Virus record (IMG/VR): IMGVR_UViG_3300027861_000052
Span: 1 to 44,039 of that record
Source of the DNA: a virus
Strand: one strand, 5' to 3'
Length of the DNA stretch: 44,039 nucleotides
The position numbers were made by a program, and so were the translations under genes. The notes below the pieces were generated by a model. The model saw only the letters and a program-made list of their open reading frames with translations. It did not search any database and was not told where the DNA came from. Within the stretch, counting starts at the first letter, position 1; each line of letters begins with the position of its first letter. This document shows, piece by piece, positions 4,426 through 44,039 of this stretch.

Positions 4426-4426
4426 T

Positions 4427-21276: not shown

Positions 21277-21277
21277 T

Positions 21278-23052: not shown

Positions 23053-23070
23053 CTAGCTATATATGTAATT

Positions 23071-23115: not shown

Positions 23116-26100
23116 TTACTTTATATAGAAGTTTTTCATATCAAGATAGTTCTGCCATTTTTTAATTGAATATAAAACAGGCACTGCATCTTGCCATTCT
23201 TTTTTAAGTTTCCAAGTTCCAGCCCTGCTACCTCTTTGATAAACAACTTCCTTATTCTTATAAAATTCTTTATTGTTTTGTGTAATAGCATAATAAGGTG
23301 TCTCAACAGTTGACCATAATGCTTGACCAAGTTCACCCATAGTTCTAGAAGATGCTATAGGGGATTTAACCATTTGATACTGTTGGTCTGATCCCAATAT
23401 AGGAACAAATAATATTAGTTCTTTAAAAGATCTATCTGCTTGGTATATTGCTATATTCTTAAATCTTTTAAGTATCTCATTGTCATCATCATCTCCAGCA
23501 AAAGATGACATTAATATTTCTTTCATTACAAAAGTTAACATCATTATTCCTATTTCACCCATAGTTCTGTAGAATCCAAACAATTGATTTTTAGCAACTT
23601 CTTTGTTTTTTTCATATGAACCATCAAACTTTTGAATATAACCTTGCTCCTCCATAAAGTTTTCACCATAGTCTCTAAACTTCATATCTCCTTTTGCTAT
23701 TTGACCAAAAGCATAACCCATAAACTTCCACCAAGATCTATATCGGCCTTCCATCCATCCTAAGTTTTCATCAAAATATTGTTGCTGAAATCTAGCTCTA
23801 ATTGCAGGAGCAACCCACTTATGAAATTGAGCTGCTAGTTTACCTACAGTACTAGATTGAAGAACCATTCTATCTTCTGCTGCATAGTTACCGTGAATCT
23901 GTTTATTTACTTCCCGTATTTTATTTCTAAAATCATATCTAAAATCAACATTATATTCACCTACTTCTATAATCTGTTGTGATTTTCCGTCTTCACTTAG
24001 ATTTTCAGGATCATATTTTACTATAGTTTTAAATCCTTCTTTTAGTTTTAATCCTTTAGTTTCAGCATCAAACTCCAGAGCATCATATAAAGATAGAATT
24101 TCACCACCTTCTCCCCCTTTTCTAATATATGTGTCCATCAGCATGGCTATGCCAACTTTAGTTTGGACATTCCATTCTGCCGCATCTTGCAAAACATAAC
24201 CCCATTCTGTAGCTTTATTCAACCAAGATTTATTAATTGATTCCATATCAGCTCCAGTCTCTCGTATATCTGCATCTGAATCCATCATTCTAAACAGAGA
24301 TACAGCTGCTTCATACTTACTAGTTGGAAGTGTAGGATCATAGTCAGTTGCATTTATAGGTTTCTTTGCCATTGATGCTAATCTATGAATCATGTCTGGT
24401 ACAGCTCTTCTATTATATTCCACACTTGCTCTACCAAAAGCTTTTGCGCTATAGAATCTACCACCTATTGCTTCAATATTATCATTCAATCTACCAAGAA
24501 CATAATTATTAAAATTACCAAATGGATTAAAAGCAACATATGATAATGATGACCACTTTATCAAACCGTCTGCAAGCTTTTCTCCAAAGCCTTTAGTTAG
24601 TTGATCGTTATCATAGTAAACCATATTCATCCACTTCTTGGCTCTTTTAAGAATATTAGAGTCTGTTCCTTTTACAGAACCTCTTTGTTCAAATCCAAGT
24701 TTATTTTTAATACCGGTAGTTATCCTACTATCTTGAGGTTGGTATTCTCTTTTTTCTATGACTTTAAGCATTGCTTTCATTGTATCTTCCACAGTGGACA
24801 TTGTATCATAATGTTCTGCCATGGTAAGAAACTTCAATAATCCAGAAGCCATGTCTTTATTAAGTTCACCTTTAGAAGGTTTATTTTCTAATGCAGCCCT
24901 TTTACCTTGAAGCAATGCTAGTTTATCTTTATATTCTACTTTGCTTATTTTCTCATCAATCATTTCTTGTTCTAATGCTTGAATTTGCTCATCAATATCT
25001 GTTAATTGCTTATCTGTAGCAGGAACCCCTGTATAAAAAATAGGTAAGCTATCTATTAAATTTCCATTTTCGTCAACAAATATTGATCTTTGTTGGGCTG
25101 TAGTTCTAAATAAATTCTTAATTCCTCTAGATGTTTTTGCAAACATATCCGTAAAGAAAGCACCTTTATCTTTAATGCTGCCTATTACATTTGCTCTAAT
25201 TAAAGGAACTCTTCCTAGCATTTGATCTCTTTGTGCTTTTGGTAATTTTTGCAAAAGATCTTGCTCAAATACATTTCTAAAAAAGTCATAAAATTCTTTT
25301 TGAGCTAAACCTAGTGCTGACTTATTTTCTTGAATTGCTATAAATTTTTCACTACGCATGTCTTTACCAGATCTACTTACCAATCTTCTTTTTCTATATT
25401 CAGGCTTAACAGTATCAAATATTTGATCTTTTAATATAGCTCCTGTGGGATTTCCATTTTTATCATTTTTCATGATATCCTTACCTTCCACATCAACACC
25501 TGTAGTATAGTATTTTGCTTTAAATCTATAGTATGCATCATCAGAAATATCTGTTCTTCTTTTCCAAAAGCCGTTTCTACCTACAGGTACAAAATACATA
25601 TACTTTTTTCTTTCTTGTTTAAAATCATCGGTATAGTAATGATACTCTCCATCAATAGGTTCATTACCAGCACCAATAGTTTCAGCATTAAAGAAGTTTC
25701 CAAATTTCCTTCTCTTTAAAGCAAGGTCTATATTATAGTCTATATCTTCTTGAGAAGCTGTTTGTAAGTTTGTGACATCTCTATATTGATATGGTTGACC
25801 ATTTTCATCATATAACTGAGATCTTAATTCCTCAAGCAAATCATAGTATACTTGTCCTATTTCTTGAACATATCTGCCACTAAACTCACCATTCTCATCC
25901 ATTTCTAACATGAAGTCAAATATCTTTTGTGGATCTTTTTCAGATGAAAGTTTTTGAAGTTTTGAAGCAAGGTTTCTAATAGTAGATTCTCTTGTTTGAA
26001 TTTTATCAAGAAGTTCTTGTTTTTTAGCTTTATAAATTTTATCCATTAAAGCTAATAATGTATCTGGAGAAGTTGCTAAATCTTTAGTTTGCAATTCTAC

Positions 26101-28896
26101 AATTCCTATATCTCTACCAAACTGCATAAGATGATCTAATTCTTCTTCGCTAAAGTTTTGACTAGATCTTGTTTTTACTATATTTCTTACATAGCTTGTA
26201 ACCGCTTTATCAATAACACCTTCGTTAGATTTTGTACCAACTAAATCATTTGCTTTAGCTTGAAGAGTAAAAGCAAGTCTTCTCTGTGTAGCGTTTAAAG
26301 GTTTTGAGTCAACAACTGAATATAGACCTTCAAATGTAGCAAGATAATTATCAAAATTTAAAGCATATCTAATGTATTCTGGTTTACCAAAGTTTTTGGG
26401 ATTCTCCATATAATCTTTAAAGTAATCCATTTGCTTTATAGCATCTCTAAGTAAGGATGAGTATGTAGCAACTTTTGTTTTTGGATCTAGACTCATAGCC
26501 AATGTTATGGCGTTTATAGAGTTGTTTATACTTTCTTTTAATTGAGATACAGATTTATGCTTACCTAAGAAAACATTATTCTTAAGCATCTCTAAAGCTT
26601 CTAATTTTCTTACTAAGCCTATTCTATAATCTTCTAAAGCCTGTGTTATAACTTTATATTCAGGATCTACTTTTTGATCTTGAGGCTGAGCTTCTTTAGC
26701 ATTTAAAGTTGTATCTGCTTTACTTTCAGGACTCTTGCTTGAAGCTTGATCTATTTTTCTTTTTGCTTGTGCATCTACACTTAATGGCATTATTGCATCA
26801 ATGTAAGGTAGGTTTTGAGATTCTGGATGTGGTACCCAGGTTTCTGTTTTAAATGTACCTTCAAACTTTTGATCTTTACCTTTACCAGTTACATCAACAT
26901 GTATATGCATTGTTGAAGCATTACCGTCTTGAGTACTTACAGTATATCCCATATTCTCAAGCATTCTTCTATACAAATTAACCTGCAAATTATGTTGTTG
27001 TTCCTTGCTTAGTTCTTCAGCAATACCTGCTTTTTTAAGCATGCTGTCTTCTCCGATTTTATACTTTGAATTACTATATGATTTCTCACCTTTATATGTA
27101 TCCTCAATGCTTGTTTTAGAAGTTTTTAAATCTACAATTTTTAAGCTACCATTTGGTTGTACTAATAATAAATCAATTGATCCTGCTAACTTTGTGCTTT
27201 TATCAAAGACAACTACTTGAGGTATTGCAATACTACCATCTTGAGTTAATAGTGCTAAGTTTGCTTGCAAAGCCGCATATGCATTCCCAAATTGCTGTTC
27301 ATTTAAAATTTTCATTTGCTCAGCTATATCTTTAACAGGCATATCTGTAGAAAGACCATCTAATATTGTATCAAAATCATTTCCTAAATCTAAGTTTAAT
27401 TGAAAGTCTTCTATTCTATCTTCAGGCATTTTTCCTTTTATAGCTTCTGTTGTACTTGTCCATACTGTAGCTGAATCATTTAAATCTTGATACGTATGAG
27501 TTGCTTCATCTAAAACTAAAATAGGATCTCCATCTTTAAGTGTTGATGCAGCAAGATTTCCAACTTCTTTTGGAGAATGCATTGCTCCATGAAATATGTT
27601 TTCTATTATTTCTTTTTGAGTTTTATTAGCTTGTCGTATAGCATAATCATAAGCTGCTTGTTTACCTGGCGTAAGATTATATCTCACTTTATTATTATCA
27701 GTCTTTAAATCAACGTCAAATGATATATCACTTGTATTTAAAAACTTTGCTATATCGGATAGAGTTGCGTTATCTGGAATTATGTCCGGTGTCAACCTTG
27801 TTATTCTTCTGACTTCTTCATTTGCAAGTTGCTCATTATTTATAACATCATCAGTTGCAGACTCTCTTCTTTCTTGCTCAAGAAGTGCAGTATCACCTCT
27901 AAAGTAGCTTAAGTTTCTACCTGTAAAAACTTCACCTAAACTTTGGACAATAGAAAAAAACCAATCTACAAATTCTTTTATTCTATCTTTAAATGTTTTA
28001 GTTGTTTCTGTTTTAAACTCTTTATCAAAATATCTAGATAAACCTTGAGTTACTAATTCTAATTCTCTATCTCTTTGTGTAAATCCTCTTTTATCTGTAT
28101 ATGCTTCCGCAATCTCTTGGTTTAATTCTGGAAAATTTAATTTTGCTTCCTCTAATAAAGAATTAAAAAGCTCAGGGTTGGAAGCTGCAAATGAATCAAC
28201 AAAAGGATGTAAAACTTCTTCAATTGCAATTTGATCAGTTACACGTTCTTTTATAAGATATGCTGTACCGTTAACATAAAAAGATCTAACATCCTTAAAT
28301 TCTTTGATGTCACTCTTTTGATCTTTAGGTAATTTATCATAAATCTTTTTAGCTTCTCTTTTACCAAGAACTTTAATTTCAACAGAAGGAAATAATCTAC
28401 TTAAGTGTTCTATTAACTCTGTAGTATGATTAGTACCAAATGATCTAGATTCGGGTAGTATATCTCTCTGTGTTAGAAGCGTAGGCTCAAGCTTTATAGA
28501 TAAGCCTTTTCCCATCATTTTTTTACTAAATATATCAAGAGGTATATTATTAGATATTAAATACCCTTGTATTCTATCATAATTAAACTTTCTTATTCCA
28601 GCATTATAGACTCTATCTTTTGATGATACCACATACCAATTATCACCAAGCTTACTTATCATTCCCTTTCGCCTCATGTTTTCATAAAGAGCATCAACAA
28701 AAGACTTTCTTTTTAAGTTAAAGGCTGTTTTACTTTGTTTTTCAAATTTCAATGCTTCTTCCACTGAGGGTATAGCATCCGAATTATTTACATCCTGCCA
28801 TGCAGAGATTAATGAATTTGCAACTATTGGAGAGCCAACAGCTTTAGCCACAAGTTTAAATTCATCCAAACTTCTATTTATACATCTAACTGCCAT
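23116..28896 (-). CDS. Giant virion-associated protein with PD-(D/E)XK nuclease motif (1,926 aa)
   Basis: The second of two giant late genes. Visible in order: a helical N-terminal region; a zincin-like segment EEVLHPFVDSF at 226-236 with DRELELVTQ near 276-284, where the first His of HExxH is Glu; a PD-(D/E)XK core with Asp575 in AGSIDLLLV and IVDLKTSK at 587-594 (Asp589, Lys591), like RecB/Cas4 nucleases; a long helical middle with a coiled coil near 1,300; and a C-terminal part with HKWVAPAIRARFQQQY and a hydrophobic helix near 1,776-1,798 that could insert into membranes. I recall related C-termini in giant crAss-like virion proteins. It probably enters the host with the polymerase protein. 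It starts 2 bases after that gene's stop. Substrates are unknown. Confidence 0.8.
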   Translation of the reverse strand: MAVRCINRSLDEFKLVAKAVGSPIVANSLISAWQDVNNSDAIPSVEEALKFEKQSKTAFNLKRKSFVDALYENMRRKGMISKLGDNWYVVSSKDRVYNAGIRKFNYDRIQGYLISNNIPLDIFSKKMMGKGLSIKLEPTLLTQRDILPESRSFGTNHTTELIEHLSRLFPSVEIKVLGKREAKKIYDKLPKDQKSDIKEFKDVRSFYVNGTAYLIKERVTDQIAIEEVLHPFVDSFAASNPELFNSLLEEAKLNFPELNQEIAEAYTDKRGFTQRDRELELVTQGLSRYFDKEFKTETTKTFKDRIKEFVDWFFSIVQSLGEVFTGRNLSYFRGDTALLEQERRESATDDVINNEQLANEEVRRITRLTPDIIPDNATLSDIAKFLNTSDISFDVDLKTDNNKVRYNLTPGKQAAYDYAIRQANKTQKEIIENIFHGAMHSPKEVGNLAASTLKDGDPILVLDEATHTYQDLNDSATVWTSTTEAIKGKMPEDRIEDFQLNLDLGNDFDTILDGLSTDMPVKDIAEQMKILNEQQFGNAYAALQANLALLTQDGSIAIPQVVVFDKSTKLAGSIDLLLVQPNGSLKIVDLKTSKTSIEDTYKGEKSYSNSKYKIGEDSMLKKAGIAEELSKEQQHNLQVNLYRRMLENMGYTVSTQDGNASTMHIHVDVTGKGKDQKFEGTFKTETWVPHPESQNLPYIDAIMPLSVDAQAKRKIDQASSKSPESKADTTLNAKEAQPQDQKVDPEYKVITQALEDYRIGLVRKLEALEMLKNNVFLGKHKSVSQLKESINNSINAITLAMSLDPKTKVATYSSLLRDAIKQMDYFKDYMENPKNFGKPEYIRYALNFDNYLATFEGLYSVVDSKPLNATQRRLAFTLQAKANDLVGTKSNEGVIDKAVTSYVRNIVKTRSSQNFSEEELDHLMQFGRDIGIVELQTKDLATSPDTLLALMDKIYKAKKQELLDKIQTRESTIRNLASKLQKLSSEKDPQKIFDFMLEMDENGEFSGRYVQEIGQVYYDLLEELRSQLYDENGQPYQYRDVTNLQTASQEDIDYNIDLALKRRKFGNFFNAETIGAGNEPIDGEYHYYTDDFKQERKKYMYFVPVGRNGFWKRRTDISDDAYYRFKAKYYTTGVDVEGKDIMKNDKNGNPTGAILKDQIFDTVKPEYRKRRLVSRSGKDMRSEKFIAIQENKSALGLAQKEFYDFFRNVFEQDLLQKLPKAQRDQMLGRVPLIRANVIGSIKDKGAFFTDMFAKTSRGIKNLFRTTAQQRSIFVDENGNLIDSLPIFYTGVPATDKQLTDIDEQIQALEQEMIDEKISKVEYKDKLALLQGKRAALENKPSKGELNKDMASGLLKFLTMAEHYDTMSTVEDTMKAMLKVIEKREYQPQDSRITTGIKNKLGFEQRGSVKGTDSNILKRAKKWMNMVYYDNDQLTKGFGEKLADGLIKWSSLSYVAFNPFGNFNNYVLGRLNDNIEAIGGRFYSAKAFGRASVEYNRRAVPDMIHRLASMAKKPINATDYDPTLPTSKYEAAVSLFRMMDSDADIRETGADMESINKSWLNKATEWGYVLQDAAEWNVQTKVGIAMLMDTYIRKGGEGGEILSLYDALEFDAETKGLKLKEGFKTIVKYDPENLSEDGKSQQIIEVGEYNVDFRYDFRNKIREVNKQIHGNYAAEDRMVLQSSTVGKLAAQFHKWVAPAIRARFQQQYFDENLGWMEGRYRSWWKFMGYAFGQIAKGDMKFRDYGENFMEEQGYIQKFDGSYEKNKEVAKNQLFGFYRTMGEIGIMMLTFVMKEILMSSFAGDDDDNEILKRFKNIAIYQADRSFKELILFVPILGSDQQYQMVKSPIASSRTMGELGQALWSTVETPYYAITQNNKEFYKNKEVVYQRGSRAGTWKLKKEWQDAVPVLYSIKKWQNYLDMKNFYIK

Positions 28897-28898: not shown

Positions 28899-31800
28899 TT
28901 AACCATTAAAACATTTATTAATTTCTTCTTTAAATTGTTCAAAGCTGGTATAAGCATTTGCTCTTTTAGCTTCTTTTTGTAAATCTGCAAGTGATGATAT
29001 ATCAAAAGTTCTTAATGTTCTTTTTTGAGGTATGCTCAAACTTTCCCAGAACTCTGCAACTTGCTCATCCATACTAACTTTAAACTTGCTTTCATCTTTT
29101 TGTATTGGGCTATTTAAATCTAATTCACCTTCTACTTCTCCATCTTCTGGTAACTCTATAGAAAAACTTTGTGAGTCTGTGTTATCAGATCCCGGAAGTA
29201 CAAACTCACCTTCAACTTCACCATCAGCAGGTAAATCTACATTTTTGATATCTGTTTGTTTTTTACCATTTAAAGTTACATTTTTTCCATCAAAACCTAT
29301 CTCAGTTTCAGGATTATCTTTTAGATTCTCTGCATTTTGTTTAGACTTAATAGAATCATATTTATTCATTATGTTAATAGCTCCTGGTGTAGTAAGAAAA
29401 TATTCAAACGTTCCTTTAGGCCCTTCTCTAAAACCTAATGTGTTATTTATCTCATCGTATTTAGCTTTTAGTTCAGCATCTAATTTAGGATTTTCTCCAG
29501 GAATATATAAGCTTGATACAGCAGATCTTGCTTCAGCTGCAGCTCTCTTATTCTGTTTAGACATATCAGACTCTTCTATTGGGTTTGCATCTCTAATTAC
29601 TTTTCTTACTTCCTTATTACTTTTTAAATCTCCAAAAATATAACCTCCTGCAAATTGAGCTGTAGATCCTTTTACATCTACTTCTACATATTGCGCATAT
29701 GATCCTGAAACTAAAGGACCGGTATACATATCATGCATATTTTGTCTTTTCTTTGATCCAATCACTCTTTTTAGCTTGAAGTATTTCCAGTTATCCCCTA
29801 CTTTAGTTCTTATTGCTGCAGGAAAAATTACTTCATTTTGTACATACCCATCTGTTTCTACCTTTGTTATACCAAAACCTTTAGTTTCTACTAAGTTTTT
29901 ATTTTTTTCAAAAGCTTCCCTTTGCTTTCCTTTAAGCGTTTTTACAGAACTTGTTTTCATACTACCTTCAAATGTAGTAGATCTACTATAGACACCTTTC
30001 AATAAATCAATTGTAAGGACTCCCTTGTTACCTTCCATACTAATATTAATTGGAGCTTTTAAAGCATTAGTATTTAATACATCTTCTTTTTTCTCTTCTT
30101 TTGTTTTATACCCTGCAATATTATAATCAAAATACTCATCCATCAATGTAACTAGCTCATCATGTAATTCTGGACTATTATCTTGTAAACCTTTTATTAC
30201 TTCTGCTGGTATACTTGAAGGTAAAAATACACTATTAAACATTCCTCTTTGAGAAGCTATTATTTTAACTTGTTCTCTTAGCGCTTTCTTAGCTTGATCT
30301 ACTTCAAATGGAGAATAATAATTTGACTCTATATTTGCATCACTTTTCTTTATTATTAATCTAAATGCATTAGGTTGATCTCTTACAATTTTACTATCAG
30401 ATGATCCTATACCAGCTTCATTATCAAATATTATAAACATATCATTTGGTCTACTGGCTACCTGAGTTTGTGTAAAACTTTTATTAGCAATTATAGTATT
30501 AGCTTTAGGATTATATAAAGGTATTCCATTATGCGTACTTAGCATATATGAAGTTTTAGCGCTCAAGAAATAGTTTGTTACAAGTTCTTCAAAGAAATCT
30601 TCATATGTCATACCCATTACACTTTCAAAGAAAGCACCATCTCCCCTTTTAAAAGCTTCTTTTATTGTTGAAGCATTTTCTAAATACTTACCTAAAGCGG
30701 GAGGTGATATTGCAGAAAGTAACGTTTTATACGCAGGCTGCAATCCATCTTTTACCATTAAGTAATTCATGATATCCATAGCTAAATATCTAGTCTTGGG
30801 ATCTAAGAATAACTCTTTAAATCCATTTTGAAGATCTACTTTATCACTATCCTTTATTCTGGTTAATGTATTTGAACCTGCAATATATGTACCTGTTTTA
30901 TTTCCTTCAGTTAATGCGTCTTCCAATCTGATAAAATCATCTAAAAAGAAGTTAAACTTTCCATTTTGTAATTCTCTAGCTTTTTCAACTATAGCTACAA
31001 TATTTATATTTTTATTATCACTTGGATATATAATATCATTAGTTAAAGTTGCACCTGCTTGAGGATCAGTTAGTGATAAATGATGCATGTAACTTTTTAT
31101 TGTTACAATAGATAGAATGTCCCTAGTAATATTTTTTCTAACATCAGGATCTATATAACGCATGCGTTTATTTTTTGCATCATAGAAGGTAGAATTATGG
31201 AGTAAAGTTGGCATAAACTTATTATACCCACCTTTAGATCTAGATAAAAATATTTCAGGTAATAGTTCACCGTAGAATTCTTCAAATATACTCAAAGATG
31301 TTGACTGCCATGTATCGCTTCTGAATATAGGTCTTATATCCATTAATGGTAAGTCTTCCCATCTCATATTTTTAAGCTCAGCATCTGGAATATTTAAACC
31401 TAATTTTTCTATTGACATAGCAGTTTCATCCATTGCTGCAATATTTTGACCATATCCACTTGTTAAGTCCATTAAAGCACCCATTTCCTTAGTGAATCCC
31501 GATATATCAAGAGCATTAAGAAACTGAGCTAAAGCATCATATTGCATTACAGCCTCTTCAAGAGTAATTGCTTCATTACCCTCTTCTGCTGCACTTGCTC
31601 TTTCTCTAATTAAATCAGTAGCATCATTAAATTTAAGAATCGGATCTTTAATCAGTTCTTTAAGCGTCTCTTGATTTACATCAGTTGTACCTATCAGACT
31701 TGTTCCTCTATCTCCACCTAAATCTTTTATTACTCCAAACAGCAATCTCATTTGACTTTCAATGAACTTTTTCGTACCTATAAATTCAGGATCTGTTTTT

Positions 31801-34800
31801 TCTAAGAAGTAACTTCTTTTTATTGTTGGATTATTTATTAAGTAAATAGAAGTTTTAATTGGCACACCCATTGCAGTCATAACAGCCACTATACCCAATG
31901 CATTTTTAGACAAACCTAATTTAGCCGCAAGTCTTTCCTTAGCATTATCTGTCATTGCTGTGATCAATGCTGATATAATATATTGTTTTCTTCTACCTGG
32001 ACTACCATCTTCTAATACTTCTCTATTGTTAGTTCCAGAGAATTCATTATAAACTTGACCACCAAGAGTTAATCGCAGACCTTGTTCCTCACCTTTAACT
32101 ACTCTGCTTTTAAGTTTTACATTAAACTCTTGAAGTAAGCTTAAAAATAAATTAGGTCTTACAACTGCACCAATAGATGCTGCACCTTCTTTGTTATTTC
32201 CAAAACCTCTACCTTGACCTAAAAAATTATCTGGATCTAAACCTTCTTCATTAACAGCCTCTTTAAGTTCAGGAATCTCTGCAAATATTTCTTCTTGCAA
32301 TTCTAATAGAATATCAAGATCTGCAGCTTCATATGATATTGGCATACCATCCTTGTATGTTGTATTGTACTCATTAGACATCATAGCCCATTTTAAGTCT
32401 AGAACTTCATTGTTTAAAGCAGCGCTATAAGGTTGTCTACCTTTATTCTGAACAATATAAGTATTATATTGCTCTTTTGTTAAAGGCAGTCCTAATGTTA
32501 AAAGAGCATCAATAGTCTGTCTAGTCCATCCAGAATCTAAAAGTTTTTCAATTTCAGCATCTGTAAGAGAATTTTTTAAACCTTGGATTTTAGATTTATT
32601 GGAAGCCTCTTTATATACGGATCCTTTAGAGCTAATGTTCTTTTTAATATATTTCTGGTAATCATTAAAATTATTACCAAATTCCTTAAACTGAATTTTT
32701 GTTTGCTCCTTCATATAAGGCTTGCCTTTTGTACGAAGTTTATCTTTTACAAGGAGAGTTTTTGGCTCAGTTCCTTTTATATAAATTCTTTTATTATCTC
32801 CTCTTTTATGTGGTATAAAATAGTAATCATCTCCATTTTCAGTTTTCATCAGTGACTTTTCTATTTCACCAAAATTGACACCGCCACCATCTTCTTTAAT
32901 TAAATCCAATTGTTTTTGAGCTTGCTCTAAACTATCTACAACCCAAACATCCAATGGCTCTTTAGCTTTAGTTTGATCTTTAATTTCTGTATGTTCATAC
33001 ATATCTACAATAACATCATAGATTTTTTCCTTCTTTCCAGTAGGGACTCTTTCAGAATAGTATTCTTTCATTTGAATATACAACTTATCAATATCAAAGT
33101 CAGCCCCAGATACCTCAACTAATTCTCTTGGAGATATTATACTAGATCCGTAATATACAGGTAAGAAATCTACAACTTTTATATTAATTGTAGAGTGATT
33201 ATCTTGAGATGGGATACGTATACCAAACATTTTAGCTACAGAATCTGGTATAGCCTCTCCAGGTTTTAAGTCCAAGTTAGCATAAACATCTGAAGTATGA
33301 GCAGGTAGCATTGATTCGCTATATTTTACACCGGTATAATTACCATTTTCATCATACTGCTTCATATCAAATCTTAACCTATCTAATATTATAACACCCT
33401 TACCTTTTGATTTGTCTACTTCAGTTTTAAGAGTATCAAAACTTTGATCATCTGAAAAGTCTACAGCTTCACCATTTCTTTTTACTAAATCATCTGCAGA
33501 ATAATTATTTAAAAAATCATCTGATCTAATTATCTCTTGTCTATCAGGATATCCATTTTCATCTACAGATAGAACTCTTCTGTATACATTTACCCCATAG
33601 TCAGAAACTAATGCAGCAGATATACCAGGTAACTTTTCAGATATAACAGACTTGTTAAAATATGAAAGAAATAACTGCTCAAATTTTTCTATAGTAAGCG
33701 GATTATTAAGTTCGTATTTTGGTTCACCTGTATCAGGATCAAAACCAAAAAATTCTAAAAGCTCACTTGCTGACTGACTCGCCATTAAAGATGTCTGAGC
33801 ATACTGCAAATAAGCTAATAAGTCAGTTGTAATTTTCTTTTGATCAATACTTTTATGCACTTCGCTCATTGCGTATTCTACATCAAAACTAAATATAAGA
33901 TTTCTTTTATCTAAATACTTACCTGTTAGTCTATCAGCAATTGCTTTATTATAACTATATCGCAAGTCTCCTATAGTTTTTTTAACCCATCCACCTTCAC
34001 CATCAGGAATTGATACCTCAGTAGCATCATTTTGCTCCCCGGTTATCAATGTTTTAATCTGAGTAGGATCTGTTATTTCTAACTTATTAGATGGGTTTAT
34101 TACCTGAAGACCCATAAAATTAGCATCTAGAGTCATTGACTCACTTTTAGATAATGGTGTATTAACATTTTGAGTATCAACAAATGTGTTAATATTATTT
34201 ACATTTTCCTTTAACATCTTCATTGCTGATATAGGAGCAGCTAAAGCAATAGTATCATTTTCTTCCTCAAACCTTTCCATGCGCTCCCTCATATTGTGAA
34301 GCTTTACTCTATCAGGTCTTGCTATCCAATTACCTTGAGCATCTTGAGACGATGTATATTGTTTAGTCAATGTAAAAGCTGACATCTTTATGAATGTTTT
34401 ACCGTCACCATATACAAGCTTTTTAGAGTTTAGCATTGCTTGCGTTTTTGCAGCTCCTAGTTTACCAAATATTTCTTTAGTTGGTACTTTTTCTCCGTTA
34501 GCAATTCTATCTAATAGTTTATTTTGTGCAGCTGTAAGTTTCCCAAATCCAAACCACATATGCTTAAAGGCTTTTACTGTCATCCATAACTGAGCATCTG
34601 CATGATCAATATCCTTTTTTGCTTGTTCATTTTCTCCAAATCTAGACTTACCCGTAGGTTCAGTCATTGGGAATATTGACATTTCTTGTAGTGGCTTATT
34701 AATACCAAATTCAGGAGCAGCTATAGAACTGGCAGCACTATAATATGCAGCATTTTGCATCTTGGCTCTTTTAACAGCATCAACAGCATCTTTAAGACTT

Positions 34801-37800
34801 TGTGCTTGATCACCTAATAAGATTTCATTTAAAGAACTAGTATTAACCCAATTGCTAAAAAATATTTGAGCTAAATTCCAAGTTTTATTTTTAGCTCTTA
34901 AGTTTAATCTATCTGCAGTAGTTGCAAATTTACCAGCATCTCTTGTTGCATCTTCGGGTCTAACTACACCATCCATTATAAATTTAGGTAGTTCGTTATC
35001 TCCAAATAAAGCTTCTAAATCATTTTGAAATGCAGCAAACTCATCCATAAGTCTTTTAGATACAAAGGATCTAAGACTTTCTTCAGTTTCTCCTATAGAT
35101 TCTAATAGCTCATCAAAGCTAATCCTTGAAGCTTCTTCTTTACTTAACTTAGCTATAGCATCTTCTAGTTTTTTCTTAAGGCCGCCTCTTTGTCTAGATT
35201 CTTTAACTATTCGCCCTGCATTTTCATAGTCTTCATTTTCAACTGCAGCCTTTTCAGCCTCTTTAAGTTCTTCTTGAGAAAGCTCTGTTATATCATCTCT
35301 TACTATTTCATATAAATGTTTTTTTCTTTTTCCTTGTAGGAACAATTTCATGTCCTGGTTCTCTACCCATTTAGTTCTTTCTTGGTCTGACCTTGATCCA
35401 TCTTTAGGCTGAACCCATTTGACAGTATGAGTTTCTGTTTCTTGATCTGAGATTGCATCTCCTAATTTATTTAGTATCTCTGATTCATTTGAATTAGTCA
35501 TTTCTACAAAACCTACATACTTTACTTTATGAAGTGTACCTTGATCTGCAGCAGCTTTTGCTAGATATTTATATTTCTTTCTTCCTTTTTTGCTTTCCTT
35601 TTTTTCTGCACCATATAGCACCATATCCTTTGTAGTTTGAGGAATAGTGTGCTGTGATTTTTCATGCATCTTTTGACTACCTAAGAACATAGTTTGAGAT
35701 TCGCTTCTTAATCTATCTGTTCCCTGGGTCTCTATTAAAAACTGACCCACCCCAGCCTCTTCGTATGCTTTTATTTGAATAGGATCTAATAAGTTTCCGG
35801 TATTAGTATATTTAAATGCTCTACCATTTTTATCAAAAGCTTGACCATCTTTTGTAGCATTGTATCCAGCTTTTAAAACACCCTCTTTAGTATCATCATT
35901 ATATGTTGCGGAGTAGCCGCTTTCATTTAAAATTCTTTCAGTTTCAGCCTCTATCCTATCCATGAAGTATTGTACTACTTCAGGTGTAAGTTCCATTCCA
36001 CCATCTGCACCATCCATTATAGCTTTAACAACCGGAAGTGATACCATATCTCCAGTGTTAGATGCTTCAATTACTCTTATAAGTGATGGTGATAATGCTA
36101 TATTATTTTTTCCGTCAAATACTGTTTCAATTTCACCAGTAGAATTATTCATATTAGCTGTATATGAACCTAGCAAAGCCATTAAAAACTCTTTTTGCGT
36201 TAAGTCACCATATGTTATACCCTGTTCACTTTTATCATAACCCTCGACTATACCACCGCTATCATCTTGTCTTATATTTTTACTTGATTTTACACCCGCT
36301 ATTCTTTGAATTTTTAATCTACCTTCCGCAGATAAAGCTCTAAATGCAGGACTTCCTAGAAGATAATTATAGTTGAGATCTAAATTCTTGTAAACATCAT
36401 CTAGAACCTGTCCTCCACCTGCAACATCATTTAGTTTAGCAATTTGTTTTAGATGAAATGTAGGTAATTGATGCGCATAAACTAGATCTCCAGCTGGATT
36501 TTTAAATACAGAAGCTCCAACTGTTTCATCAAAGTTAGCATTTGCTATTGCTATTTCTCTAAGTCTACCATAAACCCCTTCATCATCTTCCATCAAGTTG
36601 TCATTTAACTCTAATGCATCTACCATATACATGACAGTCTTGTAGTCAATTGCTTTAACATTCGGATATTGAGCAGCTAGTGATTTTTGTCTTGATGTTT
36701 TATTTGTAACATTAGACGCTATACTAAATTCAATTAAACCTTCACTTACTCTTAAGCCTAATGATTCTTTAAATGCTTGAGATATAGCTAAAGCCAAAGT
36801 TCTCATATCTTCATCTGATAATTCAGACATAGGTTTTTCTTTATTAAGAGCCTCTGCTAATATTTGAACTTGTTTAACAGCATCTTCAATTAGTCCTGGA
36901 TTATCTTTAAATTTCTTTCGTAAGTTTCTATATGCAGAATCCCAAATTTCAATTTGTGTATTAGCATCATCTCTTAATGCAGCATTGTATGATATTATTT
37001 GACCATCTTTAGTTCTTCTATGGATAAATAAATAATCCACTCTAAAATTTTCAAATCCTTTTATCACGGCTTGAAACAAATCATTCCTTTTTAGAGTTCC
37101 GGGGAGTATTCCATCTTGCAGCTGACCTTCCCATACTATACCCAAATCATTAAACAACCTTTCTTGTACTGCTCTTGTTTGAGGATTATTTCTACTAAAT
37201 AGATAAAGTCTTTGTAATATTTGAACAGGATCTGATATACCGGATATTGCTTTTAAAAATCCTGAATAAACTACAGAGAAATCAACAGGTATAACTATCC
37301 TTTCTTTAGACATATTACCCTCAGCATCTTCAATATCTAATTCAAAATTACCAAACATATCAGGTCTTTGTTCTACTATAAGCTGACCAGTTATTGGATC
37401 AGTTTTCATTTTTTCATCAACTAAAGTAGTAGTACCTATATATTTTCTTAGGAAAGCAGATAAAGATCTAAACCCTCCAGTCATAGAAGCATCCTTATCC
37501 CATTCGCTAGTTGTTCTTAAACCAAATGAATTTTCTAATGTACCATCTTCTTCTTCTGTAGTTTCTAAGCCAACATCATAAAATGATAGCTCTTCTACTA
37601 CAGAATCAACTAAATCTTTACCATAATTTTCAAGAGCATTATTTAAAGCAACAAGATTTTCATATGCAGCTATATCTGTAATTCCTTGATATTGAGGGTT
37701 ATCAATATTATATAAATTTTTAAATGCGTTTATGGTTTTATTAATCTCATCAACTATATCAAAATCAGGATCTGTAGATTTTTGTTGTTGATCTATAACT

Positions 37801-40800
37801 CTTGCTACAATCATAGATGTCAAACCTCTACCTACTTTGCCATCTAGATATTTATATTCTATTTTACCACTTGGCAGTACAACCTTTTCAGTGCGTAGTA
37901 TTTTATTTGCAGATACCGTAACACCCATATTAACCTCCTGTGTAAAGGAGTTGGCCGCAACACTAGCTGTTTTAAATTTACCAGAATCAATACCTTCATA
38001 TAATAACCGTAGTTCAGTAGCGTTATATGTTCCAAGTATAGATTTTATAAATTCCATTATTTTATTAAATAAAGATTTTATCCAAGAAGCTGTTTTAGTT
38101 TTCTTGGGATTTTCTTTAAATATCTGAAATTCATCAGCCATATACTCTTCATAGTACAGCTTCTCTAATTGTTCATTAGATAAGTTTTTATACTTTTCAA
38201 TATCTGAATTTTTTAATCTTTGCAATTCACTTGCTAATGACACACCTTGCGCTCTAAGTTTAGCTCTTACCTCTTTTTTTGCAGCACTAATATATGTTGC
38301 CTGTTGTTCTGGTGTTAAAAGCATTCTAAATACAGCGTGAAATGCTTCATGATACCCATACTTAGATGAAGTACCTGTATATATTGTACCGTTTACTTTC
38401 ATCTTTCCGGCAATATTTTTGATTGCCATAACAAAAGCACCAACCCTTTCACCCCCAGACTTCATATTATTACCAAGAGTTGCAATATCTTCTGTAGTTA
38501 TAAAATCAGGAAGATTTTCATTAGCCCAAGCTATAAACTCATCTATATCATTTACATCTCTTTCTGATAAATTTTCAGCAACAACTTTATTAGCTGATAG
38601 TTTATCTCTTATTTCATTCTCTTCCTTATTAAGTTTTTTCCATCTAGGGTCTTTCTTTGTTTCAGCTTCAATTTGACTTAAAGGTAAACCTCGTTTTAAT
38701 ACTTCAGCTTTAATAGTTTTCTTTTCATTTTCAATTTGAACAAGTCTCTCCGAAAGTTGGTTTCTATCTAATTGTTCAGTTATTGATTTATTACTTGGTG
38801 CAGAACCTTGTTTAGCAGATACTGCCTGAACTACCGCATTTGCAAGTTGAGAATTTTGAGCTGATGTTAAATCGCTTAATCTAGAACCTTTTTTAGCATT
38901 TCTATTTGCTTGAATTATGCTTGTCAATTCAGCATCAAAAGCTTGCTGTATTGCTGATTTATTTACAGGTATACCTTTAGGTATAATAACTGTAGCCATA
39001 GCAAAGCCTGGTCTATTACCTTTATCTACTACTTTCACCTTTGATTTGTATGATACCTGCGAGCTTCCGTCTTCTAACTTGGTTATTCTGAAACCATCTT
39101 TACCAAATGTTTTATCACCCCTAGGGTCTTCAACAGACTTACTCTCTTCTTCTGTGGTATTGCTTGACGATAATGTTTGATATCCATCAGCGGTCCCCGA
39201 TATGACAACCTTAGGATTAGTTAATACAGGTTCTACTTTAGTATTATCTGAAAGAGGTGCTTTTAGTTTTGCAACTAATATATTTATTTGACCTGATACA
39301 GCTGGATTTTGTAAAACTTGCAGTTCTTTATTTGTAAGTGATTTTCCTGAAGGATCAGCAACCATCTTATTGGCAATAAACTCTTTTTGACCTTTTGTTA
39401 AATTTGCAAAATCATTATTCTTTAGTCTAGTAAATTCTTCTTCAGATAATAAATTTATATCATTTGAATTTGGATCTTTTTCTGAACTAGAATCTTGATT
39501 TATAGCTTGATCAATTTTTTCTGCTTCAGCAAGGGCTAAGTCTTTTCTTGTATAAATTGCACCATCTAATTCTTTACCTGAAGGAGTAATTATTTTCCAT
39601 CCACCTTCATCTTTGACTACAGTATGTTTTCCGGTCTCTATGTCTGCAGGATTTGAAGTTGATGAACTTATTGCAGATGCTAATGGCAATACTGATTGAA
39701 TTTGCTGTAAGTCAATACCATCTATATTTGAAATCAGTTTTACATCTCCACGGACGTTAGGTTGCACTGTTGCAACAACTTTAGATGCAATTTCATTTGC
39801 AGATGCCGTAACTGAAAAACCTTCTCTTATAGATCCTATATCAAACTTTAATTTAGATGCAGCTTTCAATAAATCTTTTCTAGCATCCGGTGTATTTTTA
39901 GTAACTGACTTACTCCATTCTTTTAATTCTGTGTTTGCCTTATCAAATAAGTCTTTAAAGATTTGAGTTTTATCATCTAAATTTTCATATTCCTGTATTG
40001 AAGCTAAGTCATCCATATATACGCTAACTGCAGACTTACCTTCTCTATCGTATATTTTTAATTGAATGCTGCCATTTGCAGTAAGATTTACATCAACAGT
40101 ATATCCTGGTATATTTGTAGCAATAAAAAAGTTTAAATCATTAATCTCAGTATTAAACTCAGAGTTATAATTAGTATTAGCTATTACACCTGCTTTTCTA
40201 CCTTTTACTTCTTTAATGTTTTCTTTCTGAGATAGAGCAGATCTTTTTATTAATCTATCTACCATATCTTCAAGAAGTTCTTTTGAGACAACATCGGACT
40301 TAACTGGAAAATAAGAGTAAGTTCCATTTTTACTCTTAACAATCATTACATATCTTCCTGCATTTGCTATACCATCCATCATAACAGAATTTTGTTCTGC
40401 CATTTCTTTCTTTATTCTTTCTGGAAATTCTACTCTTTCTTTAGGTGAACCCCCTGTCATTGAAGTTATAAATCTAGAAGCAACCTTGCCTTTACTATTC
40501 CTTCTATTTTCAACAATAACTGTATGGCCATCTACTTCATTTATTGAAAGTTGATCAATGCCTATTGTTTGACCAGTTGGCAAAAAGTCCATTTTACCCG
40601 CAGTAGTTGATAAGTCTACACCTAATTGTTTTAATGTAAATTTTCCAGATTCCTTTTTACCAAGCAATGAAGATATTGTATCCATCATTTTATACTGGAT
40701 AGCAAAGTTTTTCCTAACATTTTCAGCAGCTGTTTCAGCATCTGTAAATATTGAAAATAAATCTTTTACTTGATTAGCTGTTATATTTAAAGGATCAATT

Positions 40801-43800
40801 TGACTACCATTATTATCAAATAATGCAATATCAGTATTTGGGAAATAACCAACTATATTATCTTTTGGTAAGTCTAGATTTGCTTTTTGCAGAACGCTGT
40901 TAATTTTTCCTTGTAATTCTTTTGGTATTTTTAAAGCTATACTATAAGTTTGAGTAGCCCTTTTTATCCTAGAGTTTGGAGCCTTATCTTCAAATTTAAA
41001 GTTTTGACCAGTCAATGCTCCACCGTTTTGAGCTTTAACCACTTCAACTTCTAAAGCTGCTAATTCCTCAGCATTAAGCGATGCTATTATTGCCTGAAAT
41101 CTTCTTTTAGCAAGGACTTCATTTTCCCTTTTTGTTTTATCAAACTTATCATTTACATGATAAATTAAAGCAGTAGCTTCATCAACTCTTAATTTACTTA
41201 CATCAGAAGGAACATTTAATTTTTCAAGTGATACTTCAGAAACTTTATAGCGAGCTTTAAACTCACCTGGATTTAATTTAATAGCTGCAGCATTCCTATT
41301 TTTCTTTGCACCTTTCATTAAGGATACTTTTCCAATTGGTAATAAATATAATCTACCTCCAGCATTTACTTCTTTTGGTGTACCTATTACTATATATTTT
41401 TTACCTGTTGTTGAATCTACAACTTCGGTACCAAAGGATAAATCAAAACCATCAAAAGAGAATACTCCATCTTGAGGAACTATATTATCTAATTTCTTTT
41501 GCGCAGCCTTAGCTTTTGCTTTATCACTAAATGCTAATCCAACATCTAACCCTGCAATCTCTACAAGCTCTTGTTGTATTGGAGTACCATCATTATATAC
41601 AACTTGGTAAAAGGTTGTAGTTTCTCCCGTAGTCGGATCTTTTACTGCAATCTCTATTACTTTCGTTTTATCACCTGGGGAAACAACGGTCTCTTCCGCA
41701 ATATCAGTTCTTTCTCTTTGAAATTCGGGAATAAAAGTTTGAAATGTTGTATTTGTATCTCCTAATATTTTTGATACTAATAGATTGCCTTCTTGCAAAG
41801 ATAGCCAGTTAGCAAATCCTTTATCAGTACTAAATATATTATCTTTAACATCCTGCTCTTCTATGTTAGATAATGTTTGATACCATAGTTTTTTTAAAGC
41901 CTGGTATGCTTTAATGTGGTTTTTTGCAACAGCTGTTTCAATAAACTTCTGAAAAGTCAAAGGCTTGATTCCCGCCTTTATACTCATTGCCCTATTTTTT
42001 TTATACAGGTCTTTTAAAACTTCTTGTAGTACAGGTGACTCAGATGCACTGGCACCGTAGACTAAAGCTTCTGGCCCTTCTATGCCAGCTTCTTCTAGTG
42101 CTTCATCTACTGAATCAGCTACTTCTTTTTGAGTTGCCTCTGGGTCGCCTTCTTGTAGTTTTTTCTTTTCTTCTTGTACTTTAGCTTGAGATGTTTGTTT
42201 ATATACATCTATTATTCTCTTAATTTTTGCATACAATTCAGGGTCTGTAGATTCATTTACAATCCCTTGATCACTCAAGAATGTTTTTAAGTCATCGGCA
42301 TTTCCTGTTCTACCAAATGCAATAGCTTGATCTAGATCAACATAAATTCTTAATTTTAAAAGTTCATTTAATACTTGATTTATTTCTTTCTTGTTTATAA
42401 AGGCTCTTATAGCTTTCTCTAAAATCTCAAGTTTATTTTCATGAGCATATTTTAAATACTCATATCCTCTTCTTACTATATAATCTAATCTTTCAGGGTT
42501 AGCCAATATTGCTAATGATTTATCATAAACCCTTTGTCTATTTGATAAATGATTATGGTCTACTATTTTATTAACTACATCTTTAATTCTACCTTCATCT
42601 ACAAAATCATCTTTAGTCTCAGCTACAAGTTTAAGATACGCTAATACTTTAGGCATAAGTTTTGAAGTTTTTCTTCTATCAAAACGTCTATCTTTTTCAG
42701 ACAAAGTTTGATTTTCATCAGCATATAAAACATCTGCTACAGCTTGTAAAGCCAACAGCTTTTTTTCTTTTTGCTTTTTTAATAACTTTGTTCCCGCCTC
42801 ACCTAAACCAGGTATTTCTTTTTCAAGCATTTCAATCTCTTTCAAAAGTGTTTTCTGATTTAATAAAAGTGTTATATCATTTGCGGCAATATCTTTTATA
42901 ATAGGATCAGAGGCAAGCTCTTCATATATAGATGCAGCTCTTTCTCCTGCCCTAAGAAATCCATTCTTTGTAAATAAAGTTAACATTCTAGCATGTTCAA
43001 ATGCTCTATGCTTTAATGTTTCATCTATCCATTCTCTAGAATTAGGTTCAAACTGAGTAGGGTCAAAAGGATTTAGATTCTTATCTTTATTATCACGATA
43101 AGTTTCCTCCATCTGATCAATGTTAGCTAATTGCTTTGTTATGCTTTGTCTTAACTTTCCATTTTTAGCTCTAACTTTTTCACTTGGAAATGCTTCAGCT
43201 AACTCCTTATCTGAAAGTGTTAAAAAGTCTTCAAGTTGTTCTCTAAAAAGATCTTGACTGCCGTTATTAAATATATGAACCAAGTGTGCAAATCTAGCTT
43301 CATCTTTGACATCAATGTGATCCATGATTTCATTGTTATCCATTGCTACCTGAAGCTGGCTAGCTGATTGTTTTTGTGTTATAAAGTTTAAGCTTGACTC
43401 ATCGAACATTGAAGTAACATCACTTGCTTGAGCATTCCATGTTTTATTTAGAACATCTACAGCATTTTCAACAAGTGTATCTACATTTTTTTTGTGAGCA
43501 TCATAAGCCTCTTTATTAAAAGTCATCTGATATAAAGCAGGTATACCTTCAAACACAGCTTTTTGAGGTCCTGAAACTACACCTCCCATCAAAAATCCTG
43601 ACATAAATGTTTCAAAACCTTGCCCACTAAACTGCTCACCTAATCCATGTAAAGCACTAGCTTTAGCTAAAGCCAAGCCACCAGCAGAAGGATCAAACGC
43701 AATTTCTTTAAAATAATCTTTAACTCCTGCAGACACAGCTTCTTGATAAGTTTCTTGAATACCTTCACTAACATTTGCAGAAAAGAATCTCAAAGCTGCT

Positions 43801-44039
43801 CCAGCACCCATCATTGCTCCACCTTTTAAACCACCTGCTCTAACAGACTTATATAGATACTTTAGATTCATAAAGCTTTCGCCAACATCTTCAAAAACAT
43901 CTTTGGCAATTTTTCCTCCTTGTACTGTCGCTTTTGTTTTTAATATACGTTTTGGCAATCCTTCAATAGTATCTCGCATTACCCTACTAAGACTTCTTTT
44001 AAATCCGCCAAATGAATTACCTAGTAATAATTGATTGGA
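28899..44039 (-). CDS. Giant crAss-like virion RNA polymerase polyprotein with zincin motif (5' end beyond window)
   Basis: At least 5,046 residues; the first in-window ATG is at 43979, but the frame stays open to the window edge, so the true start is outside. Numbering is from that ATG. Near 1877-1881 lies HEAFH with a candidate third ligand in YYEEYMADEF (1942-1951), a gluzincin-like metalloprotease site. The block IRIPSQDNHST...SGADFDIDKLY has Asp3627, Asp3629 and Asp3631, the catalytic Mg-binding loop of crAss-like virion RNA polymerases, which resemble the two-barrel RNA polymerases of eukaryotic RNA silencing. The characterised phi14:2 enzyme is about 2,180 aa, so this protein adds over 2,800 residues. 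The C-terminus has two DGEVEGE repeats (about 4912-4950). It would be ejected into the host and transcribe early genes. Confidence 0.85.
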   Translation of the reverse strand, partial: SNQLLLGNSFGGFKRSLSRVMRDTIEGLPKRILKTKATVQGGKIAKDVFEDVGESFMNLKYLYKSVRAGGLKGGAMMGAGAALRFFSANVSEGIQETYQEAVSAGVKDYFKEIAFDPSAGGLALAKASALHGLGEQFSGQGFETFMSGFLMGGVVSGPQKAVFEGIPALYQMTFNKEAYDAHKKNVDTLVENAVDVLNKTWNAQASDVTSMFDESSLNFITQKQSASQLQVAMDNNEIMDHIDVKDEARFAHLVHIFNNGSQDLFREQLEDFLTLSDKELAEAFPSEKVRAKNGKLRQSITKQLANIDQMEETYRDNKDKNLNPFDPTQFEPNSREWIDETLKHRAFEHARMLTLFTKNGFLRAGERAASIYEELASDPIIKDIAANDITLLLNQKTLLKEIEMLEKEIPGLGEAGTKLLKKQKEKKLLALQAVADVLYADENQTLSEKDRRFDRRKTSKLMPKVLAYLKLVAETKDDFVDEGRIKDVVNKIVDHNHLSNRQRVYDKSLAILANPERLDYIVRRGYEYLKYAHENKLEILEKAIRAFINKKEINQVLNELLKLRIYVDLDQAIAFGRTGNADDLKTFLSDQGIVNESTDPELYAKIKRIIDVYKQTSQAKVQEEKKKLQEGDPEATQKEVADSVDEALEEAGIEGPEALVYGASASESPVLQEVLKDLYKKNRAMSIKAGIKPLTFQKFIETAVAKNHIKAYQALKKLWYQTLSNIEEQDVKDNIFSTDKGFANWLSLQEGNLLVSKILGDTNTTFQTFIPEFQRERTDIAEETVVSPGDKTKVIEIAVKDPTTGETTTFYQVVYNDGTPIQQELVEIAGLDVGLAFSDKAKAKAAQKKLDNIVPQDGVFSFDGFDLSFGTEVVDSTTGKKYIVIGTPKEVNAGGRLYLLPIGKVSLMKGAKKNRNAAAIKLNPGEFKARYKVSEVSLEKLNVPSDVSKLRVDEATALIYHVNDKFDKTKRENEVLAKRRFQAIIASLNAEELAALEVEVVKAQNGGALTGQNFKFEDKAPNSRIKRATQTYSIALKIPKELQGKINSVLQKANLDLPKDNIVGYFPNTDIALFDNNGSQIDPLNITANQVKDLFSIFTDAETAAENVRKNFAIQYKMMDTISSLLGKKESGKFTLKQLGVDLSTTAGKMDFLPTGQTIGIDQLSINEVDGHTVIVENRRNSKGKVASRFITSMTGGSPKERVEFPERIKKEMAEQNSVMMDGIANAGRYVMIVKSKNGTYSYFPVKSDVVSKELLEDMVDRLIKRSALSQKENIKEVKGRKAGVIANTNYNSEFNTEINDLNFFIATNIPGYTVDVNLTANGSIQLKIYDREGKSAVSVYMDDLASIQEYENLDDKTQIFKDLFDKANTELKEWSKSVTKNTPDARKDLLKAASKLKFDIGSIREGFSVTASANEIASKVVATVQPNVRGDVKLISNIDGIDLQQIQSVLPLASAISSSTSNPADIETGKHTVVKDEGGWKIITPSGKELDGAIYTRKDLALAEAEKIDQAINQDSSSEKDPNSNDINLLSEEEFTRLKNNDFANLTKGQKEFIANKMVADPSGKSLTNKELQVLQNPAVSGQINILVAKLKAPLSDNTKVEPVLTNPKVVISGTADGYQTLSSSNTTEEESKSVEDPRGDKTFGKDGFRITKLEDGSSQVSYKSKVKVVDKGNRPGFAMATVIIPKGIPVNKSAIQQAFDAELTSIIQANRNAKKGSRLSDLTSAQNSQLANAVVQAVSAKQGSAPSNKSITEQLDRNQLSERLVQIENEKKTIKAEVLKRGLPLSQIEAETKKDPRWKKLNKEENEIRDKLSANKVVAENLSERDVNDIDEFIAWANENLPDFITTEDIATLGNNMKSGGERVGAFVMAIKNIAGKMKVNGTIYTGTSSKYGYHEAFHAVFRMLLTPEQQATYISAAKKEVRAKLRAQGVSLASELQRLKNSDIEKYKNLSNEQLEKLYYEEYMADEFQIFKENPKKTKTASWIKSLFNKIMEFIKSILGTYNATELRLLYEGIDSGKFKTASVAANSFTQEVNMGVTVSANKILRTEKVVLPSGKIEYKYLDGKVGRGLTSMIVARVIDQQQKSTDPDFDIVDEINKTINAFKNLYNIDNPQYQGITDIAAYENLVALNNALENYGKDLVDSVVEELSFYDVGLETTEEEDGTLENSFGLRTTSEWDKDASMTGGFRSLSAFLRKYIGTTTLVDEKMKTDPITGQLIVEQRPDMFGNFELDIEDAEGNMSKERIVIPVDFSVVYSGFLKAISGISDPVQILQRLYLFSRNNPQTRAVQERLFNDLGIVWEGQLQDGILPGTLKRNDLFQAVIKGFENFRVDYLFIHRRTKDGQIISYNAALRDDANTQIEIWDSAYRNLRKKFKDNPGLIEDAVKQVQILAEALNKEKPMSELSDEDMRTLALAISQAFKESLGLRVSEGLIEFSIASNVTNKTSRQKSLAAQYPNVKAIDYKTVMYMVDALELNDNLMEDDEGVYGRLREIAIANANFDETVGASVFKNPAGDLVYAHQLPTFHLKQIAKLNDVAGGGQVLDDVYKNLDLNYNYLLGSPAFRALSAEGRLKIQRIAGVKSSKNIRQDDSGGIVEGYDKSEQGITYGDLTQKEFLMALLGSYTANMNNSTGEIETVFDGKNNIALSPSLIRVIEASNTGDMVSLPVVKAIMDGADGGMELTPEVVQYFMDRIEAETERILNESGYSATYNDDTKEGVLKAGYNATKDGQAFDKNGRAFKYTNTGNLLDPIQIKAYEEAGVGQFLIETQGTDRLRSESQTMFLGSQKMHEKSQHTIPQTTKDMVLYGAEKKESKKGRKKYKYLAKAAADQGTLHKVKYVGFVEMTNSNESEILNKLGDAISDQETETHTVKWVQPKDGSRSDQERTKWVENQDMKLFLQGKRKKHLYEIVRDDITELSQEELKEAEKAAVENEDYENAGRIVKESRQRGGLKKKLEDAIAKLSKEEASRISFDELLESIGETEESLRSFVSKRLMDEFAAFQNDLEALFGDNELPKFIMDGVVRPEDATRDAGKFATTADRLNLRAKNKTWNLAQIFFSNWVNTSSLNEILLGDQAQSLKDAVDAVKRAKMQNAAYYSAASSIAAPEFGINKPLQEMSIFPMTEPTGKSRFGENEQAKKDIDHADAQLWMTVKAFKHMWFGFGKLTAAQNKLLDRIANGEKVPTKEIFGKLGAAKTQAMLNSKKLVYGDGKTFIKMSAFTLTKQYTSSQDAQGNWIARPDRVKLHNMRERMERFEEENDTIALAAPISAMKMLKENVNNINTFVDTQNVNTPLSKSESMTLDANFMGLQVINPSNKLEITDPTQIKTLITGEQNDATEVSIPDGEGGWVKKTIGDLRYSYNKAIADRLTGKYLDKRNLIFSFDVEYAMSEVHKSIDQKKITTDLLAYLQYAQTSLMASQSASELLEFFGFDPDTGEPKYELNNPLTIEKFEQLFLSYFNKSVISEKLPGISAALVSDYGVNVYRRVLSVDENGYPDRQEIIRSDDFLNNYSADDLVKRNGEAVDFSDDQSFDTLKTEVDKSKGKGVIILDRLRFDMKQYDENGNYTGVKYSESMLPAHTSDVYANLDLKPGEAIPDSVAKMFGIRIPSQDNHSTINIKVVDFLPVYYGSSIISPRELVEVSGADFDIDKLYIQMKEYYSERVPTGKKEKIYDVIVDMYEHTEIKDQTKAKEPLDVWVVDSLEQAQKQLDLIKEDGGGVNFGEIEKSLMKTENGDDYYFIPHKRGDNKRIYIKGTEPKTLLVKDKLRTKGKPYMKEQTKIQFKEFGNNFNDYQKYIKKNISSKGSVYKEASNKSKIQGLKNSLTDAEIEKLLDSGWTRQTIDALLTLGLPLTKEQYNTYIVQNKGRQPYSAALNNEVLDLKWAMMSNEYNTTYKDGMPISYEAADLDILLELQEEIFAEIPELKEAVNEEGLDPDNFLGQGRGFGNNKEGAASIGAVVRPNLFLSLLQEFNVKLKSRVVKGEEQGLRLTLGGQVYNEFSGTNNREVLEDGSPGRRKQYIISALITAMTDNAKERLAAKLGLSKNALGIVAVMTAMGVPIKTSIYLINNPTIKRSYFLEKTDPEFIGTKKFIESQMRLLFGVIKDLGGDRGTSLIGTTDVNQETLKELIKDPILKFNDATDLIRERASAAEEGNEAITLEEAVMQYDALAQFLNALDISGFTKEMGALMDLTSGYGQNIAAMDETAMSIEKLGLNIPDAELKNMRWEDLPLMDIRPIFRSDTWQSTSLSIFEEFYGELLPEIFLSRSKGGYNKFMPTLLHNSTFYDAKNKRMRYIDPDVRKNITRDILSIVTIKSYMHHLSLTDPQAGATLTNDIIYPSDNKNINIVAIVEKARELQNGKFNFFLDDFIRLEDALTEGNKTGTYIAGSNTLTRIKDSDKVDLQNGFKELFLDPKTRYLAMDIMNYLMVKDGLQPAYKTLLSAISPPALGKYLENASTIKEAFKRGDGAFFESVMGMTYEDFFEELVTNYFLSAKTSYMLSTHNGIPLYNPKANTIIANKSFTQTQVASRPNDMFIIFDNEAGIGSSDSKIVRDQPNAFRLIIKKSDANIESNYYSPFEVDQAKKALREQVKIIASQRGMFNSVFLPSSIPAEVIKGLQDNSPELHDELVTLMDEYFDYNIAGYKTKEEKKEDVLNTNALKAPINISMEGNKGVLTIDLLKGVYSRSTTFEGSMKTSSVKTLKGKQREAFEKNKNLVETKGFGITKVETDGYVQNEVIFPAAIRTKVGDNWKYFKLKRVIGSKKRQNMHDMYTGPLVSGSYAQYVEVDVKGSTAQFAGGYIFGDLKSNKEVRKVIRDANPIEESDMSKQNKRAAAEARSAVSSLYIPGENPKLDAELKAKYDEINNTLGFREGPKGTFEYFLTTPGAINIMNKYDSIKSKQNAENLKDNPETEIGFDGKNVTLNGKKQTDIKNVDLPADGEVEGEFVLPGSDNTDSQSFSIELPEDGEVEGELDLNSPIQKDESKFKVSMDEQVAEFWESLSIPQKRTLRTFDISSLADLQKEAKRANAYTSFEQFKEEINKCFNG

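Follow-up and report, generated by a model that had tools for sequence, protein, structure and literature searches.

The giant open reading frame at 28899..44039 on the minus strand of the window, a virus record of 44,039 bases, is in all likelihood a gene of the Crassvirales-type transcription block that encodes a gp47-like zincin protein fused to a complete two-double-psi-barrel RNA polymerase (RNAP). The upstream part is called M1 here, the polymerase M2, and the product of the next gene M3. Both the giant ORF and M3 are of the kind that makes up the Crassvirales transcription block, namely large multidomain proteins, among which are the DxDxD protein and partners of the RNAP. The sequence-only reading had placed a crAss-like virion-type two-barrel RNAP inside one very long chain, and this is borne out by profile comparison, AlphaFold models and structural matches to phi14:2 gp66 (PDB 6VR4).

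The frame runs for 5,046 codons without a stop (5,026 when counted from the ATG at 43979), which agrees with the earlier description of an uninterrupted frame open at the window edge. The window is the entire record, so its edge is the contig edge, and it is there that the giant frame is truncated. Relatives align through ATG 43979 and continue 374-485 residues further upstream (263 in L028, which is itself cut). This means that the ATG, previously taken as the start, is internal, that about 374-485 codons are missing at the 5' end, and that the full protein would have about 5.4-5.5 thousand residues. Of the two remaining minus-strand frames, one contains an open stretch of 1,929 codons, that of the next gene, and in the other no run exceeds 150 codons. 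When the closest relative, L011 (51% identity overall to the giant protein), is compared, third-position differences exceed those at the first and second positions in each 500-residue block up to residue 4500, and less clearly beyond it. Coding constraint runs along the giant frame and is weakest in the last 500 residues. The C-terminal tail (residues ~4641-5046, 28902..30119) is poorly conserved according to the conservation table. A hydropathy scan of the giant protein gave no convincing membrane helix; the best hits were weak.

M2, a predicted single-chain two-barrel RNAP of the phi14:2 gp66 and crAss001 gp50 type, occupies residues ~2047-4640 of the open frame (30120..37901, minus strand) according to profile and structure matches, the C-terminal limit being approximate. 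Its DFDID catalytic loop is at residues 3647-3651 (33087..33101). Counted from ATG 43979 the loop starts at residue 3627, and Asp3627, Asp3629 and Asp3631 are exactly where they had been placed before. All three are invariant in 68 sequences. In the strongly conserved block after the loop, the TDNAK motif (residues 4030-4034, 31938..31952) has an invariant Asp, and its Thr, Asn and Lys are nearly so in the same sequences. In one relative, L161, DHDGD at residue 3782 of the giant ORF apparently stands in place of DFDID, with the three Asp kept.

Plain sequence comparison gave only a short match to crAss-like RNAPs, around DFDID; with crAss001 gp50 it was 37% over 99 residues (E 2e-11). A profile search and structure prediction against gp66 had been suggested for this region in the sequence-only reading, and both found the match. 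In profile-profile comparison, residues 3552-4381 match gp66 1262-1918 (prob 98.7, E 3e-16), and crAss001 gp50 was also matched by the family of the giant protein. An AlphaFold model of residues 3390-4400, built from the 68 sequences (pLDDT 81, pTM 0.75), has a single significant match in the PDB, to 6VR4 (Foldseek E 1.2e-11; VIA Z 19.2, 587 residues, rmsd 4.9), followed by the cellular RNAP large subunits with Z of 8-9. A further model covers residues 1790-2760 (pLDDT 79); its match to gp66 97-770 begins at residue 2047 (VIA Z 8.4 over 569 residues; Foldseek E 6e-13). The two models together cover gp66 97-770 and 1164-1882; this means that the fold is shared beyond the motif alone. The DxDxD metal-binding loop of the double-psi-barrel (DPBB) domain is present as DFDID, in a model that matches 6VR4. 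These profiles and models indicate that the DFDID region is a two-barrel RNAP of the gp66 type.

M1, residues 1-2046 of the open frame (37902..44039, minus strand), is the apparent counterpart of crAss001 gp47; it ends in a zincin-like domain, and its N-terminal ~460 residues lie off the contig. The zincin-like domain (residues 1832-2027, 37959..38546) matches the C-terminus of gp47, residues 2099-2295, including its HEAFH (profile, prob 96.6, E 5e-10). HEAFH is at residues 1897-1901 (38337..38351) and starts at residue 1877 when counted from ATG 43979. It is followed by YYEEYMADEF at residues 1962-1971 (38127..38156), which contains an ExxxD pattern, the pattern of gluzincins; we take its EE to provide the probable third zinc ligand. 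The two His and the Glu of HEAFH and both Glu of the EE are invariant in 66 sequences. The protease motif noticed in the extra sequence was correctly recognized. Just upstream of the zincin is a hypervariable stretch (residues 1581-1790, 38670..39299), with low conservation and occupancy in relatives. The zincin was modelled jointly with the N-terminal part of the RNAP, and fold searches of that model were dominated by 6VR4.

Outside the zincin, M1 might be weakly related to gp47: residues 80-247 match gp47 427-601 in a colinear manner with prob 24 (profile). The M1 family profile gave no hhalign match to the single sequences of phi14:2 g067 and p-crAssphage gp45, and therefore the equivalence of M1 with these two proteins is by position and annotation only. 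About 20 residues separate the end of the zincin match from the beginning of the polymerase fold, and so the join is that of a gp47-like with a gp66-like protein. The first ~2,050 residues, rather than being long regions with no assigned domain, appear by sequence comparison to be the equivalent of gp47, which in crAss001 is a cargo protein of the virion with a gene of its own; here they are fused in frame just upstream of the polymerase. This settles the identity of the "extra" residues.

M3 (1,926 aa, 23116..28896, minus strand) follows 2 bases after the giant ORF. It is an orthologue of crAss001 gp49, phi14:2 g065 and the C-terminal part of p-crAssphage gp44. Its family profile matches crAss001 gp49 with E 2e-49 and g065 with E 3e-14; family-profile hhalign against the single sequences of g065 and crAss001 gp49, the same comparison as that for g067 and p-crAssphage gp45, gave no match. 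In relatives the M3 gene begins -4 to +34 bases after the giant ORF. A weak PD-(D/E)XK-like stretch is located in M3 here and in gp47 (1700-1846) in crAss001 (E 3e-10), and this domain seems to have changed module between the two. A primase is encoded at 3460-4425; it has 73 matching records, and among the matches listed all are crAss-like phages.

Two doubts concern the existence of such a protein. DFDID could be a chance motif in a protein that is no RNA polymerase. The PHROGs scan of the giant ORF gave no family matching the RNAP part, the Pfam scan of part of the ORF assigned no RNAP (neither scan assigned a zincin), and phmmer of the ORF against PDB sequences found no related chain. The profile, AlphaFold and structural matches to 6VR4, together with the invariance of all three Asp, refute the chance motif, and its probability seems to be practically nil. 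The long frame could also be a metagenome assembly chimera or a one-off fusion, since it is known here from a single metagenomic contig that is cut inside the gene. Against this, relatives of the two parts are encoded at 295 and 328 places in IMG/VR, as scans showed, and both motifs are in one ORF at 162 of the 180 fetched loci. Most of the remaining loci are cut by locus ends or carry motif variants; at three, on two contigs, the ORF is broken up, it seems by frameshifts of a single base. After removal of near-copies, 42 distinct complete fused ORFs with the same motif order were counted, from many independent metagenomes; they range from 4,283 to 5,462 residues (median 4,664), and ten have at least 5,000. 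The identical fusion is also found in cr4_1 and cr125_1. An assembly fusion, which the sequence-only reading had named as what would overturn it, is therefore ruled out by the independent copies, and a chimera or one-off event is extremely improbable. The split giant ORFs are in L131 (13000-13240) and L185 (13560-13960), and their frameshifts may be real or may be sequencing errors.

The same modules are partitioned differently among crAss-like phages. Across CRASSVIRALES, M1, M2 and M3 are separate in crAss001 (gp47, gp50 and gp49, with gp47 on the opposite strand), M2 and M3 are fused in p-crAssphage gp44 and cr127_1, and M1 and M2 are fused in cr4_1, cr125_1 and the window clade. cr4_1 and cr125_1 (reference genomes of Suoliviridae, delta crAss-like; 4,491 and 4,502 aa) also have the zincin motif followed by the RNAP in one chain, with HEAFH at 2,002 and 2,015 and DFDxD at 3,433 and 3,556, and an M3-type gene about 2 bases after the fusion. 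However, they are about 500-1,000 residues shorter, and they use code 15, in which TAG is a sense codon and is translated. phi14:2 gp66 shares the two-barrel fold with DFDID and matches residues 2047-4381 in pieces, but it has 2,180 residues and is not fused to the upstream cargo protein. p-crAssphage gp44 and cr127_1 (4,070 and 4,133 aa) are likewise giant RNAP fusions, whereas their RNAP is joined to M3 downstream and not to M1 upstream; p-crAssphage gp45 is annotated as a zincin fusion. A further virion two-barrel RNAP is found in gp96 of Thermus phage P23-45, a chain of 5,002 residues that also has a metallopeptidase domain; this phage is long-tailed and of a different lineage, and its RNAP forms the N-terminal part of the tail tape-measure protein (PMC10770324). 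Virion RNAP fusions to large proteins have been cited for crAss-like and N4-related phages (PMC10770324).

In a tree of the RNAP core, the window clade is monophyletic (100/100), and cr4_1 and cr125_1 group with phi14:2 and crAss001, on long branches. It follows from this grouping that the gain of the M1-M2 fusion, or its loss, may have happened repeatedly, although the long branches make this unsure. As the set of 42 distinct complete fusions shows, crAss-like phages pair the three cargo modules differently, and such pairwise fusions provide good evidence that M1, M2 and M3 act as one injected transcription complex.

The following mechanism is proposed. M1 would be the N-terminal gp47-like cargo protein, with a zincin metallopeptidase-like domain at its C-terminal end, M2 the complete single-chain two-double-psi-barrel DNA-dependent RNA polymerase with its DFDID metal-binding loop, and M3 an RNAP-associated partner. 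Most likely, the capsid carries both M1-M2 and M3. They would be ejected through the tail in a partly unfolded state, ahead of or with the DNA, and would refold in the cell, where the polymerase transcribes the early genes. The fusion to M1 would guarantee co-packaging and 1:1 delivery. The genes of the Crassvirales structural block (capsid, portal and terminase, IHF, genes 74/75) lie outside the 44-kb window, so packaging is deduced only from relatives; together with ejection and early transcription, it would follow by analogy with phi14:2 and crAss001. In crAss001, gp47, gp49 and gp50 were found in virions by mass spectrometry (PMC10172136), and for phi14:2 g065-g071 the record annotation cites MS/MS detection in virions. 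The suggestion of a fused ejection machine in one chain was not sustained: in crAss001 the channel role is assigned to other genes, gp45/gp46 (PMC10172136).

The fate of the chain can be seen in other ways. The giant protein might be a polyprotein precursor that is cut near the hypervariable stretch or the zincin/RNAP boundary, either by the zincin, acting in cis or in trans, or by another protease; M1 and M2 would then be separate proteins in the mature virion, as they are in crAss001. The zincin, with its invariant catalytic residues, lies exactly at the join, ending at residue 2027 with the RNAP fold from 2047; the highly variable stretch is just upstream of it, and in crAss001 the two modules are separate genes. 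However, the zincin motif is also C-terminal in unfused crAss001 gp47, where there is no join to cut, and the P23-45 fusion, with its metallopeptidase domain, is full-size in virions (PMC10770324). The text of a proteomics paper on code-15 crAss-like phages makes no mention of the polymerase (PMC9523058). Cleavage of this kind seems rather unlikely to us. In a bolder version, which we consider a doubtful, speculative possibility, the zincin would be an active protease that processes its own chain or is directed at the host, and it would travel in covalent linkage with the injected RNAP; the ~5.5-thousand-residue chain would pass through the tail in one piece and would be cut, or would cut a host target, only after entry. 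It is quite improbable that the polymerase in this lineage is a non-virion RNAP made early in the cell. P23-45 has both kinds of RNAP (PMC10770324), but the phi14:2 and crAss001 homologues are virion proteins by mass spectrometry (annotation for phi14:2; PMC10172136 for crAss001), and the fusion to a gp47-type cargo protein and the place beside M3 follow the cargo block. An M1-M2 chain delivered from the virion is thus the reading that we prefer. Its ~600 kDa would make it an extreme example for the proposal that such proteins unfold in part to be ejected through the tail.

The size itself is not exceptional, as the sequence-only reading had supposed from the 2,180 residues of gp66. A review counts giant crAss-like RNAPs, which reach ~6,000 residues, as a hallmark (PMC10136315), the cr4_1/cr125_1 fusion has ~4,500 residues, and p-crAssphage gp44 has 4,070. 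Giant RNAPs and fusions are thus already published, and size and fusion are known in kind: the protein is long and well conserved and is not a new kind. Modestly new are the large divergent clade, the module assignment and the partition map. In plain sequence comparison, the window clade has no close named relative. Fig. 3 of PMC7886860 may already show part of the module assignment or partition map. A literature search for "largest protein" statements gave nothing further.

Several additional observations were made. RNAP relatives occur in contigs of cultured strains, Spirosoma oryzae DSM 28354 (NZ_PVTE01000009.1; L197, L199-L202) and Spirosoma terrae KCTC 52035 (L198). These RNAP ORFs, of 3,356 and 3,581 aa with DFDID and DFDVD, start near the zincin-equivalent region and have no HExxH; an M3 relative follows the RNAP ORF. 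The S. oryzae contig also encodes a major capsid protein of the crassvirus type (PF23898) and has tail genes. These loci may represent a crAss-like phage that resides in a cultured host as a prophage or phage-plasmid. On the plus strand of the window, 9974-10819 matches spore photoproduct lyase (PF20903, E 9e-15) and is a possible UV-damage repair gene, and the genes for the small and large subunits of ribonucleotide reductase lie side by side at 20296-22906. A tRNA-Arg(tct) at 22979-23053 adjoins the ribonucleotide reductase genes and the end of the transcription block.
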